Under the pieces are notes generated by a model. It did no database searches. It saw only the letters and a program-made list of their open reading frames with translations, and had not been told where the DNA came from. From IMG/VR virus record IMGVR_UViG_3300043436_001246, positions 1 to 21,841 of that record: 21,841 nt of DNA, one strand, 5' to 3'. Positions 3,545 to 17,971 of the stretch are shown here, one piece after another. The DNA is from a virus. How positions within the stretch are numbered: the first letter of the stretch is position 1; the number at the start of each line of letters is the position of its first letter. The position numbers were made by a program, and so were the translations under genes.

Positions 3545-4008
3545 AATACACACAAAGACAAATTAACATATTTAAAAAAATGCCTACTAAATTATTTTAT
3601 TGGTTTGCTTATAGATTTATTTTATTACTATTAATACTTTCGTCTTGTAACGCATCAAAAAAGTGCGAACGTATAAGTAGTAAGGCAATTGCATTAAAGT
3701 GCTTTAAAAACGATACTATTAAGTTTTACGATACTACTTTCGGTCAGGTGTACGATACTTTCGTACAATTCAAAACTAATAATGAATTTGATACTCTATT
3801 TGTAGATAGTGGAGGGGTTAAAGTTAAGACTATAATCCGTTGGAAAACTAAAGAACTTTGGCAGACAATAACTAAGGATACTATCATAAAAGAGTTTTAC
3901 AGGGTTAATAAGGTCATCACTAAAAAAGAAATACCTCAATGGACTAAGTGGATTTGGTTTGCGTTTATTATGATTTTAGTAGGTATTTATATCTCATTCA
4001 AAAAATAA
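3541..4008 (+). CDS. Unimolecular spanin (u-spanin)
   Basis: 155 residues with the two hallmarks of a u-spanin: an N-terminal lipoprotein signal (hydrophobic 25-34, lipobox LSSC with acceptor C36) and a C-terminal TM segment (about 134-152, WTKWIWFAFIMILVGIYISF). The lipid would hold it in the outer membrane and the TM in the inner membrane, fusing both at the last step of lysis, as known for T1 gp11. The middle (55-125) has repeated YDT/FDT units suited to beta strands. It is the last gene of the lysis cassette. A start at the in-frame ATG 3580 would give a more usual signal length; ATG 3541 has the ATGA coupling. Confidence 0.8.
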   Translation: MKYTQRQINIFKKMPTKLFYWFAYRFILLLLILSSCNASKKCERISSKAIALKCFKNDTIKFYDTTFGQVYDTFVQFKTNNEFDTLFVDSGGVKVKTIIRWKTKELWQTITKDTIIKEFYRVNKVITKKEIPQWTKWIWFAFIMILVGIYISFKK

Positions 4009-4019
4009 ATAAAAAAAAG

Positions 4020-4050
4020 TTTGGAAATTTAAAAAGTTTAATTAACTTTG
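4020..4050 (+). promoter_or_regulatory. Bacteroidota-type promoter (TTTG-N19-TAACTTTG)
   Basis: TTTG at 4020-4023, then 19 bp, then TAACTTTG at 4043-4050 followed by C. This matches the -33/-7 consensus of Bacteroides and Flavobacterium. A long A-tract lies just upstream. It follows the last lysis gene and would drive the replication operon, with transcription starting near 4055. Confidence 0.8.
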
Positions 4051-4062
4051 CAAACGTAATCA

Positions 4063-4171
4063 CACACGACAGATGATTAAGATATTAAACAAATTTATTG
4101 GGAGGGTTAAAAATAGTTCTAAACTATGGTGTAGTCGTGTGCACCACCCTCTTATATTTAACTACACACGA
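4063..4171 (+). promoter_or_regulatory. Structured leader with two competing pairings
   Basis: Between the 4020-4050 promoter and the HNH ATG at 4173. CACACGAC (4063-4070) can pair with GTCGTGTG (4134-4141), enclosing GAGGGT/ACCCTC elements (4102-4107, 4146-4151) in part and a hairpin ATAGTT/AACTAT (4113-4118/4122-4127). Alternatively TCGTGTG (4135-4141) can pair with CACACGA (4165-4171), placing a stem directly before the start codon. The two pairings exclude each other, which is the layout of an attenuator-like or translational switch. Confidence 0.4.
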
Positions 4172-4204
4172 AATGAATTATTCAGAAAAACTTTCAACTC
4201 ATAG
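4073..4204 (+). CDS. Possible 43-aa leader ORF, doubtful
   Basis: ATG 4073 lies 22 nt after the -7 box and opens a basic 43-residue frame ending TAG 4202-4204, which overlaps the HNH start by 32 nt. It could be a leader peptide that couples translation to the HNH gene or disrupts the structured leader. It may equally be chance; no family recognised. Confidence 0.25.
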   Translation: MIKILNKFIGRVKNSSKLWCSRVHHPLIFNYTRNELFRKTFNS

Positions 4205-4558: not shown

Positions 4559-5152
4559 ATGAGCGAAGATACTTTTAAAAATCGTACACAATTTAAGTTT
4601 TATAAAAGCTATTATGAACTTGCAAAAGAAATTGATAATGATAAAGACAGGGCAGAATATTTAATGGCAATTTGTGAATATCAATTTACAGGCATACAAC
4701 CTGAGTTAAAGGGTATGACAAAGTTTGCTTTTTTAAGTCAAAAGCATTCACTTGAAAAACAAGTAGTTGGATTTAAAACTGCAACTGACCCTGATAGGAT
4801 ACCCCCTATGGATACCCCTGAGGGATACCCCGATAGCATACCCTTAGTGCATACCCCTAATGCAATAAAGAATAAAGAATATATAATAGATAATAATCAA
4901 GAAGAAAGTATTAAGGTAAATACAAAAATATTTATACCACCTACTTTGTCTGATGTACAATCTTATTTTGAATTAAACGGATATTCTTTAGAGTCTGCAA
5001 ACAAAGCATTTAATTATTATGCAAGTGCAAATTGGGTAGATAGTAAGAATAATAAAATAAAGAATTGGAAACAAAAAATGATAGGGGTATGGTTTAAAGA
5101 AGAAAATAAGATTAAATTAGCAACCAAAAAAATAACACCGACTTATGGATAA
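4559..5152 (+). CDS. DUF6291-like replication initiation protein
   Basis: 197 residues in two parts. Residues 10-70 (FYKSYYELAKEI...AEYLMAICEYQFTG...PELKGM) resemble DUF6291, and residues 125-190 (PTLSDVQSYFELNGYS... NYYASANW... IKNWKQKMIGVW) resemble the C-terminal module of phage and plasmid replication initiators, related in layout to DnaD-type proteins. The linker between them is Pro-rich and encodes five DNA iterons (4799-4863), the same arrangement as the lambda O gene with its internal origin. It sits directly upstream of the primase-helicase and overlaps it by 8 bp. Origin binding and helicase loading is therefore the likely role; family names come from memory. Confidence 0.65.
   Translation: MSEDTFKNRTQFKFYKSYYELAKEIDNDKDRAEYLMAICEYQFTGIQPELKGMTKFAFLSQKHSLEKQVVGFKTATDPDRIPPMDTPEGYPDSIPLVHTPNAIKNKEYIIDNNQEESIKVNTKIFIPPTLSDVQSYFELNGYSLESANKAFNYYASANWVDSKNNKIKNWKQKMIGVWFKEENKIKLATKKITPTYG
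4799..4863 (+). repeat. Five 13-bp iterons: probable replication origin
   Basis: Five adjacent 13-bp units start at 4799, 4812, 4825, 4838 and 4851: ATACCCCCTATGG, ATACCCCTGAGGG, ATACCCCGATAGC, ATACCCTTAGTGC, ATACCCCTAATGC. A weak copy (TGACCCT) fits one period earlier at 4786. Because 13 is not a multiple of 3 the repeats fall in all three reading frames, so they are kept at DNA level. The next 60 bases (4864-4923) have only about 10 G/C and would suit an unwinding element. Iterons plus A+T-rich DNA inside an initiator gene is the lambda-type origin layout. Confidence 0.7.
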
Positions 5153-6971
5153 ACAATGTACGATATACAAAAACATATTTAATAAAGAACCTCACTTTAT
5201 TACAATAGATGATTGCCTGAATAGAATTAAACAAGGCAGGTCAAAAAAACAAGTTGAATTGATTAGGTCAGCACTTGACAAAGAAAGGTCAAACGAACTT
5301 AAAAAGAATTTACCCTCAGTTTGTTTTTCAGGAATATTTAACGGAGAAAGAAAAGATGAATTGATTGTAAGTCATTCAGGTTTTATAGTTTTGGACTTTG
5401 ATGATGTAGACGATGTTGAAACATTAAAGCATGAATTGATTGCTAAAGAGTTTATAAAAGCTACATGGGTTAGTCCCTCAGGCAATGGAGTTAAAGCATT
5501 AGTAAAGATTGCAAGTGGAGAGAAACACAAAGAACACTTTGCATCATTGCAGGAGTTGTTTCCACAAATAGATAGGTCAGGGGTTAATGTTGCAAGGGTG
5601 TGCTATGAAAGTTTTGATGATGATATTTTTATCAATGACAATGTAAAGCCATTCACAAAAACTAAGAAAATAGAAAGAGTTTTAGAAAAGGAAATAGATT
5701 TAGACTCAGGCAAAACATTTGATAAAATTTTAAAGTGGCTAACTAATAAAGGAGATGCGTTTGTAACAGGAGAAAGAAACCTATTTATATTTAAGTTAGC
5801 AAGTGCTTGTTGTCGATTTGGTTTATCTGATTACGATACTGAAAGGTTTATAAATAATTCAATCTTAATCAATGATAATTCATTTAGTAGTATTGAGGCA
5901 CAACACGCTATAAGAAGTGCTTACAAATCAAATGCAAATAAGGCAGGAAGTGCATACTTTGAGAAAGATGTATTGATAGACAGGGTTAATAGAAGTGAAG
6001 TGCAGATAGACCCTCAGATATTTAACTTAGATGTAAAACCTAAAGATGTAATATTTGGAGAAGATGTAAAAGAGTCAGCATTAAAATTATATCATTCAGG
6101 GTATGAAAGTGCAGATACAACCGAAGTGCCTGAGTTAGATGAGTTTTGGAAGTGGAAAAAAGGGGAGATTACTTTATTGTCAGGAATTGGTAACTATGGT
6201 AAGTCAACATTTTTAAAATACATACTACTTATCAAGTCAATTAAGAAAGGTTGGAAGTGGGCATTGTTTGCACCTGAGGACTTTCCTGCACACGAGTTTT
6301 ATCATGACTTAGTAGAGATGTATATTGGAGATGACTGCACACCTAAGAACTCTAACAGAGTATCAATAGAATTATATGAACAAGTTTATGATTGGATTAG
6401 TAAGCATTTTTTCTTTGTTTACCCTAAAGACATACTATCAACACCTGAGTATATCAAAGAAAGGTTTTTAGAGTTGATTATTAAAGAACAAGTTAATGGA
6501 GTTATAGTTGACCCGTTTAACCAAATGGATAATGACTATTCAAAAACAGGAGGTCGTGATGATAAATATTTAGAAGTGGTTTTGGCAGACTTTAAAAGGT
6601 TTGCACAAATTAACGATATACCTTTTATTGTAGTTGCACACCCTAAAGCAATAAGAAACAAAGACCCTCAGGGAAATTATGAATGCCCCGATGTATTCGA
6701 CTTAGCAGGGGGCGCAATGTGGAACAATAAAATGGATAATATAATGATTTATCATAGACCATTCAGAGGCTCAGACCCTCAGGCAACTAATTGCGAACTA
6801 CAAGTAAAGAAAATAAGACGTCAAAAGATTGTTGGAAGTGTTGGCACTTTAGATTTTAATTTAATCAAGTTTACAAGACGATATGCCTTTGCAAGTCAGA
6901 TTGATTATGTTAAACAATTAGTAAGTGAAGAAGTAAACTTAGAAGATAACATAGAAAAATTACCTTTTTAA
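5145..6971 (+). CDS. Bifunctional primase-helicase (BT4734/VirE_N-like primase, RecA-type helicase)
   Basis: 608 residues. N-terminus (about 55-165): archaeo-eukaryotic primase-like BT4734/VirE_N domain with the acidic motif LDFDD (83-87), the SPSGNGVKALV loop (110-120) and VARVCYES (149-156). Residues 190-262 form a helical linker resembling a PriCT-type region. Residues 330-590 form a RecA-like helicase core with Walker A GIGNYGKST (347-355, K353), Walker B VIVDP (453-457), VVAHP (496-500) and a C-terminal LAGGAMWNNKMDNIMIYHR region typical of T7 gp4/Twinkle-like helicases. It would unwind the fork on ssDNA and make primers. Overlaps the initiator gene by 8 bp. Confidence 0.85.
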   Translation: MDKQCTIYKNIFNKEPHFITIDDCLNRIKQGRSKKQVELIRSALDKERSNELKKNLPSVCFSGIFNGERKDELIVSHSGFIVLDFDDVDDVETLKHELIAKEFIKATWVSPSGNGVKALVKIASGEKHKEHFASLQELFPQIDRSGVNVARVCYESFDDDIFINDNVKPFTKTKKIERVLEKEIDLDSGKTFDKILKWLTNKGDAFVTGERNLFIFKLASACCRFGLSDYDTERFINNSILINDNSFSSIEAQHAIRSAYKSNANKAGSAYFEKDVLIDRVNRSEVQIDPQIFNLDVKPKDVIFGEDVKESALKLYHSGYESADTTEVPELDEFWKWKKGEITLLSGIGNYGKSTFLKYILLIKSIKKGWKWALFAPEDFPAHEFYHDLVEMYIGDDCTPKNSNRVSIELYEQVYDWISKHFFFVYPKDILSTPEYIKERFLELIIKEQVNGVIVDPFNQMDNDYSKTGGRDDKYLEVVLADFKRFAQINDIPFIVVAHPKAIRNKDPQGNYECPDVFDLAGGAMWNNKMDNIMIYHRPFRGSDPQATNCELQVKKIRRQKIVGSVGTLDFNLIKFTRRYAFASQIDYVKQLVSEEVNLEDNIEKLPF

Positions 6972-6973
6972 TC

Positions 6974-7168
6974 ATGGATATAATACAACTACTCAAAAAA
7001 GAACTACCCGATTGCCAAATTCAGCAACAAGACAACCTAATTTATGTATTTAAAGAGGGTAAAGCAACTCACTATGACTACAATTACCTTAATTATTTGT
7101 TTGAAAGTGGGCAATTAACTGAAAAAAATATAAAATTTATGTTGTTATTAATCAATAAGTTACCTTAA
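6974..7168 (+). CDS. Hypothetical protein, 64 aa
   Basis: Starts 2 nt after the primase-helicase stop, so it is co-transcribed with it. Soluble, with a mix of charged and aromatic residues (HYDYNYLNYLFESG in the middle) and no known motif. It closes the replication operon: an A+T-rich dyad and a new promoter follow. I do not recognise the family. Confidence 0.5.
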   Translation: MDIIQLLKKELPDCQIQQQDNLIYVFKEGKATHYDYNYLNYLFESGQLTEKNIKFMLLLINKLP

Positions 7169-7192
7169 AAATAAAAATAATTTAAAAAATAA

Positions 7193-7223
7193 TTTTTATT
7201 TATCAAAATAACTATTATCTTTG
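7193..7223 (+). promoter_or_regulatory. Bacteroidota-type promoter, TATCTTTG, near-leaderless
   Basis: TATCTTTG at 7216-7223 followed by C, with a T-run at 7193-7197 in place of TTTG, 18-19 bp upstream. The ATG at 7228 is only 4 nt beyond the box, so the transcript should begin at or near the start codon. Upstream, 7169-7182 and 7188-7201 form a 13-of-14 inverted repeat of A/T pairs, and 7172-7191 is identical to 10854-10873 (see the promoter at 10875). Confidence 0.7.
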
Positions 7224-7227
7224 CTCT

Positions 7228-7452
7228 ATGAATAACGAAAATCAAATAACAGAACAAATTAAATTTGCATTACATGACTTAACAAATGCAGCAGAAAACA
7301 ATTCAAAAGGTTTTAACATTAATAGTGCAATAGCAGAAATTAATATTAATGGTATTAATTATCAAATTCAAGTACAATTTGTAGCAGATAAACAAATTTG
7401 GTGCGATGAATATGGAGTTAAGTTTTCAGAAATAGTAAGAATTCACAAATAA
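7228..7452 (+). CDS. Hypothetical protein, 74 aa
   Basis: First gene after the 7193-7223 promoter and likely translated from a leaderless mRNA. The product is polar and Asn/Ile-rich, with alternating hydrophobic residues (AEININGINYQIQVQFVA) suggesting a small beta sheet. No family recognised. Being at the head of the recombination operon suggests an early role, which is inference. Confidence 0.55.
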   Translation: MNNENQITEQIKFALHDLTNAAENNSKGFNINSAIAEININGINYQIQVQFVADKQIWCDEYGVKFSEIVRIHK

Positions 7453-11445: not shown

Positions 11446-11831
11446 CACAATTAGACAGACAAATAGAAATCAATCAGCAACGACTATTAAGGTTGTATGC
11501 AAAGAAACATATTCAAGGAGAGTTCAACACCTTAGTAGACAATGAAAAGATTATCCAAGTAATTAATAGTGTAGTAGGAGTTGACATAACTAAACGATGT
11601 AGGTTTAAATGGTTTGTTATTGGGCGTACATTTTTCTACAAGATAATGAGAGAAAAAACTGACCGAAGTTTAAAAAACATTTCAGCCTTATTAATTAATC
11701 AAGACCACGCTACTTTGATACATCATTTGAATGACTTTGAGAATAGATATAGTTACGAGAAAGACTTTAGAAAGGCTTATGATGAAGTTGAAAAAAGAAT
11801 AAAAACATTAAACCAAGTAGCAACATCATGA
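11442..11831 (+). CDS. Stand-alone DnaA domain IV-like DNA-binding protein
   Basis: 129 residues. After a helical N-terminus, residues 33-100 follow the DnaA C-terminal pattern: VVGVDI (44-49), R62 in GRTFFYKIMRE, SLKNISALL (76-84) and QDHATLIHH (87-95), corresponding to the DnaA signature RDHxTVxHA. No AAA+ domain is present. DnaA domain IV binds DnaA boxes, so this may be an origin-binding, regulatory or host-replication-interfering protein. A near-match to a DnaA box (GTATCCACA, 8 of 9) lies at 11406-11414 in the preceding gene. Confidence 0.65.
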   Translation: MTQLDRQIEINQQRLLRLYAKKHIQGEFNTLVDNEKIIQVINSVVGVDITKRCRFKWFVIGRTFFYKIMREKTDRSLKNISALLINQDHATLIHHLNDFENRYSYEKDFRKAYDEVEKRIKTLNQVATS

Positions 11832-11983
11832 GCGACTCAACAATTTTCGGACAACTAATTAAACCTAAAAAAGTGGTTAAGTTAAATACTACAATAGCGA
11901 AAGAGTGCAAGTCATTTGAGTTATGGGTTAGATATATGCAGATTAAACACAGGGTAAGAATACAACTGAGTAATCAATGTTAA
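11828..11983 (+). CDS. Hypothetical basic protein, 51 aa
   Basis: ATG 11828 overlaps the stop of the DnaA-like gene (ATGA) and the frame runs to TAA 11981-11983. The product is basic (KPKKVVKLN; QIKHRVRIQL) with one Trp and no known motif. The overlap supports it as a real gene; function unknown. Confidence 0.5.
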   Translation: MSDSTIFGQLIKPKKVVKLNTTIAKECKSFELWVRYMQIKHRVRIQLSNQC

Positions 11984-12014
11984 TAAAATACTATAAAATA
12001 TTAATTAAATATAT

Positions 12015-12022
12015 TAGATTTG
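12015..12022 (+). promoter_or_regulatory. -7 box TAGATTTG, near-leaderless promoter
   Basis: TAGATTTG at 12015-12022, then CAATGTG and ATG at 12030 (GTG at 12027 is also possible). No clear TTTG at -33. Its position in a 46-bp gap and the short distance to the start codon match the other promoters here. Confidence 0.6.
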
Positions 12023-12029
12023 CAATGTG

Positions 12030-12230
12030 ATGAAAAAACCAAACAACAAAAAGAACTGCGGTAGAAAGCCGATGCAATGGATAGACAAAAAAGGTCAGAT
12101 ACTAATTACTATTCCTAACTCAGTCATTAACGAGTTAGCCCCTGAGAGTGTTGCTGAGGATAAGAAGTATTTATTTGTAGGCAAACTATTAAGTGACAAT
12201 ATACAAGCCATTAAAAGCCAATTAAAATAG
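12030..12230 (+). CDS. Hypothetical basic protein, 66 aa
   Basis: ATG 12030 is 7 nt after a -7 box; a GTG one codon earlier (12027) is the alternative. Very basic N-terminus (KKPNNKKNCGRKPMQW), then beta-like GQILITIPNS and a helical C-terminus. This could bind nucleic acid. It ends in TAG, and the next frame continues in phase immediately after it. Family not recognised. Confidence 0.55.
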   Translation: MKKPNNKKNCGRKPMQWIDKKGQILITIPNSVINELAPESVAEDKKYLFVGKLLSDNIQAIKSQLK

Positions 12231-17600: not shown

Positions 17601-17702
17601 ATGTTCTATATTAATATTGAAATAAGCAAAGATAAACCAAAAGAGAAACCCAAACAGGTTACGGATAACGAACCAACACAAAATATAAAAACAACAAAAT
17701 GA
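17601..17702 (+). CDS. 33-aa Lys-rich peptide before the SSB-like gene
   Basis: Begins 2 nt after a strong -7 box and ends in an ATGA overlap (17699-17702) with the SSB-like gene. The product is hydrophilic and rich in Lys, Pro and Thr (SKDKPKEKPKQVTDNEPTQNI). It may be a leader frame that couples translation, or the region may only be the 5' leader. Unknown family. Confidence 0.4.
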   Translation: MFYINIEISKDKPKEKPKQVTDNEPTQNIKTTK

Positions 17703-17971
17703 CAGAAAAAATTTACTGCGGAAACGCTAAAACGATTGAAACTAAGTTCGGCAAAATGCTTAAAATTAGTTTTTCAAAATCAGACCTACAAGCATTGAAC
17801 AAAGCAATGGAGGGTAAAGAGTGGGTTAATTGCAACCTAAAAAAGAAACAGACAATAGTAGAGGGTAAGCCTACTCACTATCTTGAAATAGATACTTATG
17901 TTAAACCAACGGACTCAAGAAGTCAAGTAAACGATAGCGAAAACTTGACAAATGATGAACTGCCATTTTGA
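17699..17971 (+). CDS. SSB-like protein with acidic DELPF tail
   Basis: 90 residues. Residues 3-68 alternate hydrophobic and polar residues (KIYCGNAK, MLKISFSK, WVNCNLKKK, THYLEIDTYVK), suiting a small OB-like beta barrel. The C-terminus is a flexible polar linker ending NDELPF, which matches the conserved acidic tip of bacterial and phage SSBs (DDDIPF-like) that recruits partner proteins. It is shorter than usual SSBs (about 110-180 aa), so it is a minimal version or a different ssDNA-binding family. It would serve the replication and recombination modules. No search was run. Confidence 0.55.
   Translation: MTEKIYCGNAKTIETKFGKMLKISFSKSDLQALNKAMEGKEWVNCNLKKKQTIVEGKPTHYLEIDTYVKPTDSRSQVNDSENLTNDELPF

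Follow-up and report, generated by a model that had tools for sequence, protein, structure and literature searches.

In phage lambda, the two iterons closest to the AT-rich tract suffice, together with this tract, for unwinding (PMC7466680). The initiator gp38 of phage SPP1, which works with the loader gp39 and the helicase gp40, has the origin oriL within its gene (PMC6316719). Short sites also serve known initiators, as the 12-mer sites of RctB of Vibrio chromosome 2 show (PMC5395669). Here we analyze a 21.8-kb viral contig (IMG/VR record IMGVR_UViG_3300043436_001246, positions 1 to 21,841; hereafter the window), in which an array of 13-bp direct repeats and an AT-rich tract lie inside the gene at 4559-5152. 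Its product belongs to DUF6291 (PF19808), a Pfam family of no assigned function. We propose that this gene very probably encodes a phage replication initiator with the origin inside its own coding sequence. This reading is well supported, because replication genes adjoin the gene, linker arrays with AT-rich tracts recur throughout the family, repeat type matches domain subtype, and domain and repeats were swapped jointly in a pair of related phages.

Results

The 13-bp Array Is a DNA-Level Signal

Five ATACCC units start at 4799, 4812, 4825, 4838, and 4851, a step of exactly 13 bp, and a pyrimidine follows each of them. A degenerate sixth unit, TGACCCT, lies at 4786, exactly 13 bp upstream of 4799. 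A first-pass annotation, made by a model from the letters alone, had described five exact units at 4799-4863 and a weak sixth at 4786, and all of its coordinates were right. The array and the tract behind it comprise the following features.

4786..4798, plus strand: iteron 1, degenerate, TGACCCTGATAGG, in the 13-bp register (sequence)
4799..4811, plus strand: iteron 2, ATACCCCCTATGG (sequence)
4812..4824, plus strand: iteron 3, ATACCCCTGAGGG (sequence)
4825..4837, plus strand: iteron 4, ATACCCCGATAGC (sequence)
4838..4850, plus strand: iteron 5, ATACCCTTAGTGC (sequence)
4851..4863, plus strand: iteron 6, ATACCCCTAATGC, adjoining the AT-rich tract (sequence and clade comparison)
4864..4925, plus strand: AT-rich tract, proposed unwinding element (10 G/C in 62; clade comparison)

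Tandem Repeats Finder detected the array independently, with period 13 and 5.1 copies. Over the whole window, ATACCC occurs 8 times vs. 7.9 expected by shuffling, and five of the eight occurrences make up the array. The array has 52% G/C, and only 0.12% of the 65-mers of the window are as G/C-rich. The count of about 10 G/C in the next 60 or so bases, also given by the annotation, was confirmed for 4864-4925, and only 2.3% of the window 60-mers are as G/C-poor as the one starting at 4864.

Synonymous codons were resampled in 2000 draws from the gene's own usage, with the protein kept fixed. The 13-bp self-match of the gene is 0.72 compared to 0.54 (standard deviation 0.05) under this null, and none of the 2000 recodings reached it, while periods neighboring 13 bp were ordinary. 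Because recoding with a fixed protein never attains this self-match, the repeat is a DNA feature. Since 13 is not divisible by three, the units rotate through the reading frames, and RCCC of successive units falls in frames 1, 2, 0, 1, 2, 0. The periodicity thus reflects selection on DNA and not on protein, as had been argued from the shifting frames alone. An exact 13-bp ATACCC triple is rare, with 10 stretches in 2.9 million viral contigs. Two of these are homologues of the gene at 4559-5152 (L022, the contig of relative L002, and L019, the contig of L004), and in the other eight a DUF6291 open reading frame (ORF) was not found. The motif alone is not diagnostic, since the triple scan yielded mostly unrelated places.

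The Array Lies Between Two Predicted Protein Domains

The protein matches PF19808 over residues 12-66 with 33.5 bits (curated cut-off 27.2; E 4.7e-8). AlphaFold2 (AF2) predicted two helical domains, and the predicted local distance difference test (pLDDT) score is below 50 over most of residues 85-122. This low-scoring stretch covers most of the segment for which the array and the AT-rich tract code. The array therefore sits between two predicted domains, within a linker of very low model confidence, in agreement with its placement in the first-pass annotation. The gene is divided as follows.

4559..5152, plus strand: proposed replication initiator gene, 197 amino acids, with a DUF6291 N-terminal domain, an iteron-encoded linker and a separate C-terminal domain (Pfam, phrog_15768, phrog_16304, AF2 model)
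4592..4756, plus strand: DUF6291 domain, residues 12-66, proposed iteron-binding domain (Pfam; domain and iterons moved together in a swap between relatives)
4931..5119, plus strand: C-terminal domain, residues 125-187, proposed helicase/primase-contact module (joined to different N-terminal halves elsewhere)

The annotation had named this an initiator gene without evidence, and the family as such has no assigned function that would justify the name; it is the neighboring genes and the recurrence of the layout in the family that support it. In a structure search of viral models DUF6291 proteins made up most of the best matches, and replisome-organizer and replication-initiator entries came lower in the list.

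Contigs L005-L013 have sequence in common with the window only from residues about 110-125 to 187. Because they match in that half alone, the C-terminal half moves independently, and N- and C-terminal halves recombine freely. Relatives of the C-terminal half occur in Flavobacterium phages, and we therefore infer that the window probably derives from a Bacteroidota phage.

Related Phages Retain the Array in the Linker

We compared the window with eight viral contigs that have the DUF6291 half in common with it. Of these, L002 is alike throughout, and the others have different C-terminal halves. All nine clade members retain four to six RCCC units, followed by an AT-rich tract with 6-10 G/C per 60 nt. 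AATAA repeats within the tract are retained in eight of the nine, and L031 has a related AT-rich repeat. Spacing is 13 bp throughout in the window and L002 and 14, 13, 13, 13 in L004. The remaining members show mixed spacing of 11-14 bp or steps of 25-26 bp, equal to two units, and L003 is the least regular. In every member the last two RCCC units ahead of the tract have a spacing of 12-14 bp, with a further degenerate unit after them in L004. Thus, the iteron array in the linker is conserved and the value of 13 bp is not. The first-pass annotation had named persistence of the iterons in relatives as a check; the array did persist, but its period is 11 or 10 bp in the wider family.

Window and L002 do not differ in the 227 positions before the array, differ at one of 78 in the array (in a spacer) and at none of 62 in the AT-rich tract, and show 30 differences in the C-terminal part. 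The clade lacks the GGRPKK-like stretch that follows the domain elsewhere in DUF6291, and has arrays of about 13 bp vs. 10-11 bp there. A short inverted element (C3-5, a few nucleotides, G3-5) was seen in or beside the array in all nine members, for example CCCCTGAGGG at 4815-4824 of the window and CCCCCTAGGGGG in L003. In several relatives, among the linkers of L003, L004, and L027-L031, an inverted GGGGT occupies the place of an absent direct unit.

Linker Arrays Recur in the Wider DUF6291 Family

The family set, drawn from phages, prophages and bacterial genomes, comprised 109 DUF6291 ORFs, no two of them identical. In many of those with two domains, the same linker contains a tandem array, and AT-rich tracts resembling AATGTAAATGATAATG come after it. 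We tested 85 DUF6291 linkers and 280 control ORFs of the same loci by synonymous recoding (p <= 0.01), with the test placed at the domain end in DUF6291 genes and at a fixed offset in controls. Period 11 was significant in 23/85 linkers vs. 4/280 controls (Fisher p about 2e-12) and period 10 in 15/85 vs. 4/280 (Fisher p about 2e-7). An early genome scan with the N-terminal alignment of the window clade did not find relatives.

One locus with the same C-terminal domain family, L012 (2851-3000), has an unrelated N-terminal half with its own 11-bp array, ACCCAACACAG, which is significant against synonymous recoding. Internal arrays are hence not limited to DUF6291.

Repeat Type Follows the Domain Subtype

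Of 41 members with a GGRP/GGAP motif, 28 have HACC-rich linkers and 2 have GCAAV-rich ones, whereas the counts among 10 KRxEA members are 0 and 6, respectively; these classes are a simple pattern set after inspection of the linkers and include shared ancestry, so that p-values are indicative. The Riemerella phages GRNRAP2 and PJA1 have flanks that are 93% identical over 665 bp and 98.5% identical over 1581 bp, and between these flanks lie about 350 bp of unrelated sequence. This block runs from just before the initiator start codon to the boundary between iterons and AT-rich tract.

L134 (PP801059), about 31986-32335, and L136 (PQ820058), about 31281-31641: Riemerella cassette exchange, DUF6291 domain and iterons

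In this pair, the DUF6291 domain and the iterons have been exchanged as a unit, with the AT-rich tract and the C-terminal half kept. Since repeat type follows DUF6291 subtype and both were swapped jointly, these indirect tests suggest that the DUF6291 domain reads the repeats.

Replication Genes Adjoin the Proposed Initiator Gene

The gene directly downstream in the window is a replication gene that overlaps the end of the proposed initiator gene.

5145..6971, plus strand: primase/helicase gene (BT4734-like_N, phrog_18375, DnaB-like relatives), with an 8-bp overlap with the initiator gene

Among relatives with sufficient flanking DNA, a primase/helicase gene also comes next in L008, L027, and L029, and lies one gene further in L028. 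The next gene encodes DnaB in five relatives (L033, L036, L037, L043, L044), an IstB/DnaC-like ATPase in L042 and a helicase loader of the SPP1 G39P family in L040. In L003, L004, L031, L032, and L034 the next gene has no Pfam match, and in L038 and L039 no clear replication gene lies alongside.

The proteins of 5145-6971 and 17699-17971 have SSB-like tips at their ends, EKLPF and DELPF, respectively, which may be a protein-docking tail common to both. Bacteroides finegoldii "plasmid 24" (L139, NZ_OY725926.1) was weighed as possible proof of autonomous replication but discarded, because ffh, rho, folD, and tilS lie on it besides a prophage, and it looks like a chromosomal segment circularized by assembly or amplification.

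Other repeats of the window (3990-4200, 7150-7240, 11830-12040) are short pairs or palindromes and form no arrays. The non-coding stretch 4057-4171, upstream of an HNH gene, contains TAAYYACACACGA repeatedly and an inverted GTCGTGTG copy, and may be an operator or promoter region.

Discussion

We propose that the DUF6291 domain would bind the ATACCCy repeats of the linker region. Together, the bound molecules may bend or strain the neighboring AT-rich tract 4864-4925, which would then melt, and the C-terminal domain might recruit the primase/helicase from the next gene. Binding, melting, helicase recruitment and origin firing are predictions of this reading. Beyond the window, DUF6291 probably constitutes a large group of unrecognized replication initiators, encoded by phages and prophages of Bacteroidota, Clostridia and Campylobacterota. 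The linker of each member would contain its own origin, made of subtype-specific repeats with a period of 10, 11 or about 13 bp; domain and repeats would be exchanged as a cassette, and the helicase-contact halves swapped separately.

Several observations weigh against these proposals. Exact 13-bp spacing is limited to L002 and nearly present in L004. Fold and sequence searches of the PDB gave no solved structure resembling the model, and hence no known DNA-binding fold. No significant period of 10, 11 or 13 was found in 46 of the 85 DUF6291 linkers; either their arrays are irregular or some members work otherwise. Short ORFs of about 90-130 amino acids (L055-L060 and similar) consist of little beyond the DUF6291 domain, and an internal array was not detected in them. 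The subtype classes, being drawn up with the linkers in view, count on this side as well. GC skew is flat and uniformly positive across the window. Of four complete related phages, NrS-2 has its raw skew minimum within the array and GRNRAP2 at most about 0.5 kb from the gene, and the skew of PJA1 and tooticki6-1 does not fit the array position; after coding-strand correction the support in complete phages vanishes or weakens. The skew profile, which the first-pass annotation had suggested as a check, cannot place the origin, and speaks neither for nor against one at the array.

The repeats might instead form an operator, through which the DUF6291 protein binds its own gene to repress or time the replication operon, with the origin elsewhere. 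Arrays of binding sites can be regulatory, and binding by the domain would account equally for the DNA-level selection and the joint swap of domain and repeats. However, the start codon is about 230 bp upstream of the array, which is not placed at a promoter, and promoter-like matches around it are at chance level (9 vs. 8.4 expected). An operator also leaves unexplained why every clade member has the AT-rich tract and why initiator and helicase genes are neighbors, and we regard it as unlikely.

A protein-level origin of the repeats, with selection on amino acids or slippage of a short tandem repeat having produced a proline-rich linker, would fit the recurrent TP/IP residues in the linkers of relatives and the first three units of L027 and L028, which are 12 bp apart and in frame. 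It is very unlikely, given that protein-preserving recoding never matches the observed periodicity, that none of the periods seen in the family (10, 11, and 13) is divisible by three, and that the same layout encodes unrelated linker peptides. Hardly any weight falls on a structured messenger RNA element for translation or stability. The array does contain short complementary C-rich and G-rich stretches (CCCC...GGG), but 4770-4930 does not fold unusually well as RNA (z = -0.93; equally good folds in 39 of 200 shuffles) and there is no Rfam match.

An initiator with an internal origin gives a testable function to a Pfam family that has none assigned and that occurs in phages and genomes of gut Bacteroidales and Clostridia. 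It also indicates where replication probably starts in each element that bears DUF6291. A recognition domain next to its own sites, with both co-varying, provides a natural data set for a protein-DNA recognition code. The family may also be useful for building small Bacteroidota replicons. In our literature search, no paper naming DUF6291 turned up in the library searched, and none of the papers listed evidently described origins for the family, with subscription papers mostly outside its coverage.

The closest layout is that of lambda O and ori-lambda, and of Stx phages, where the central part of the initiator gene, between two domains, holds iterons followed by an AT-rich tract. In the window clade, the AT-proximal pair of units stands out as the most evenly spaced part of the array. 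As in lambda, a helicase or loader gene adjoins the initiator, be it primase/helicase as in the window or DnaB, IstB-like or G39P-type in relatives. In lambdoid phages, N-terminal domain and iterons co-vary. Lambda iterons are roughly 18-20 bp long, whereas units are shorter here, 13 bp in the window and 10-13 bp in the family, and the next gene encodes primase/helicase, DnaB or another loader in place of lambda P. The lambda O/ori architecture invoked by the first-pass annotation is borne out as a layout that recurs through DUF6291, but not as homology, as neither Pfam nor PHROGs gave a lambda O family match. The layout thus also serves a family of initiators for which no relation to lambda O was detected.

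The SPP1 gene order is found in the relative L040, where DUF6291 directly precedes a G39P-family loader. Unlike this shared order, the proteins are not joined by any family model: a gp38-named family was not among the Pfam and PHROGs matches of the window protein, a comparison made from family-match lists and not by direct alignment with gp38. SPP1 also has a second origin, oriR. Iteron plasmids and RctB have direct-repeat arrays bound by a dedicated initiator, as we propose for DUF6291. In those systems, most repeats are located outside the gene for the initiator, and the initiators come from other families, whereas DUF6291 repeats lie inside the gene of a different protein family. The layout itself is already known from lambda O and SPP1 gp38. 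New are the family of initiators that uses it, the spread of this family, and the evidence for joint transfer of domain and sites as a cassette.
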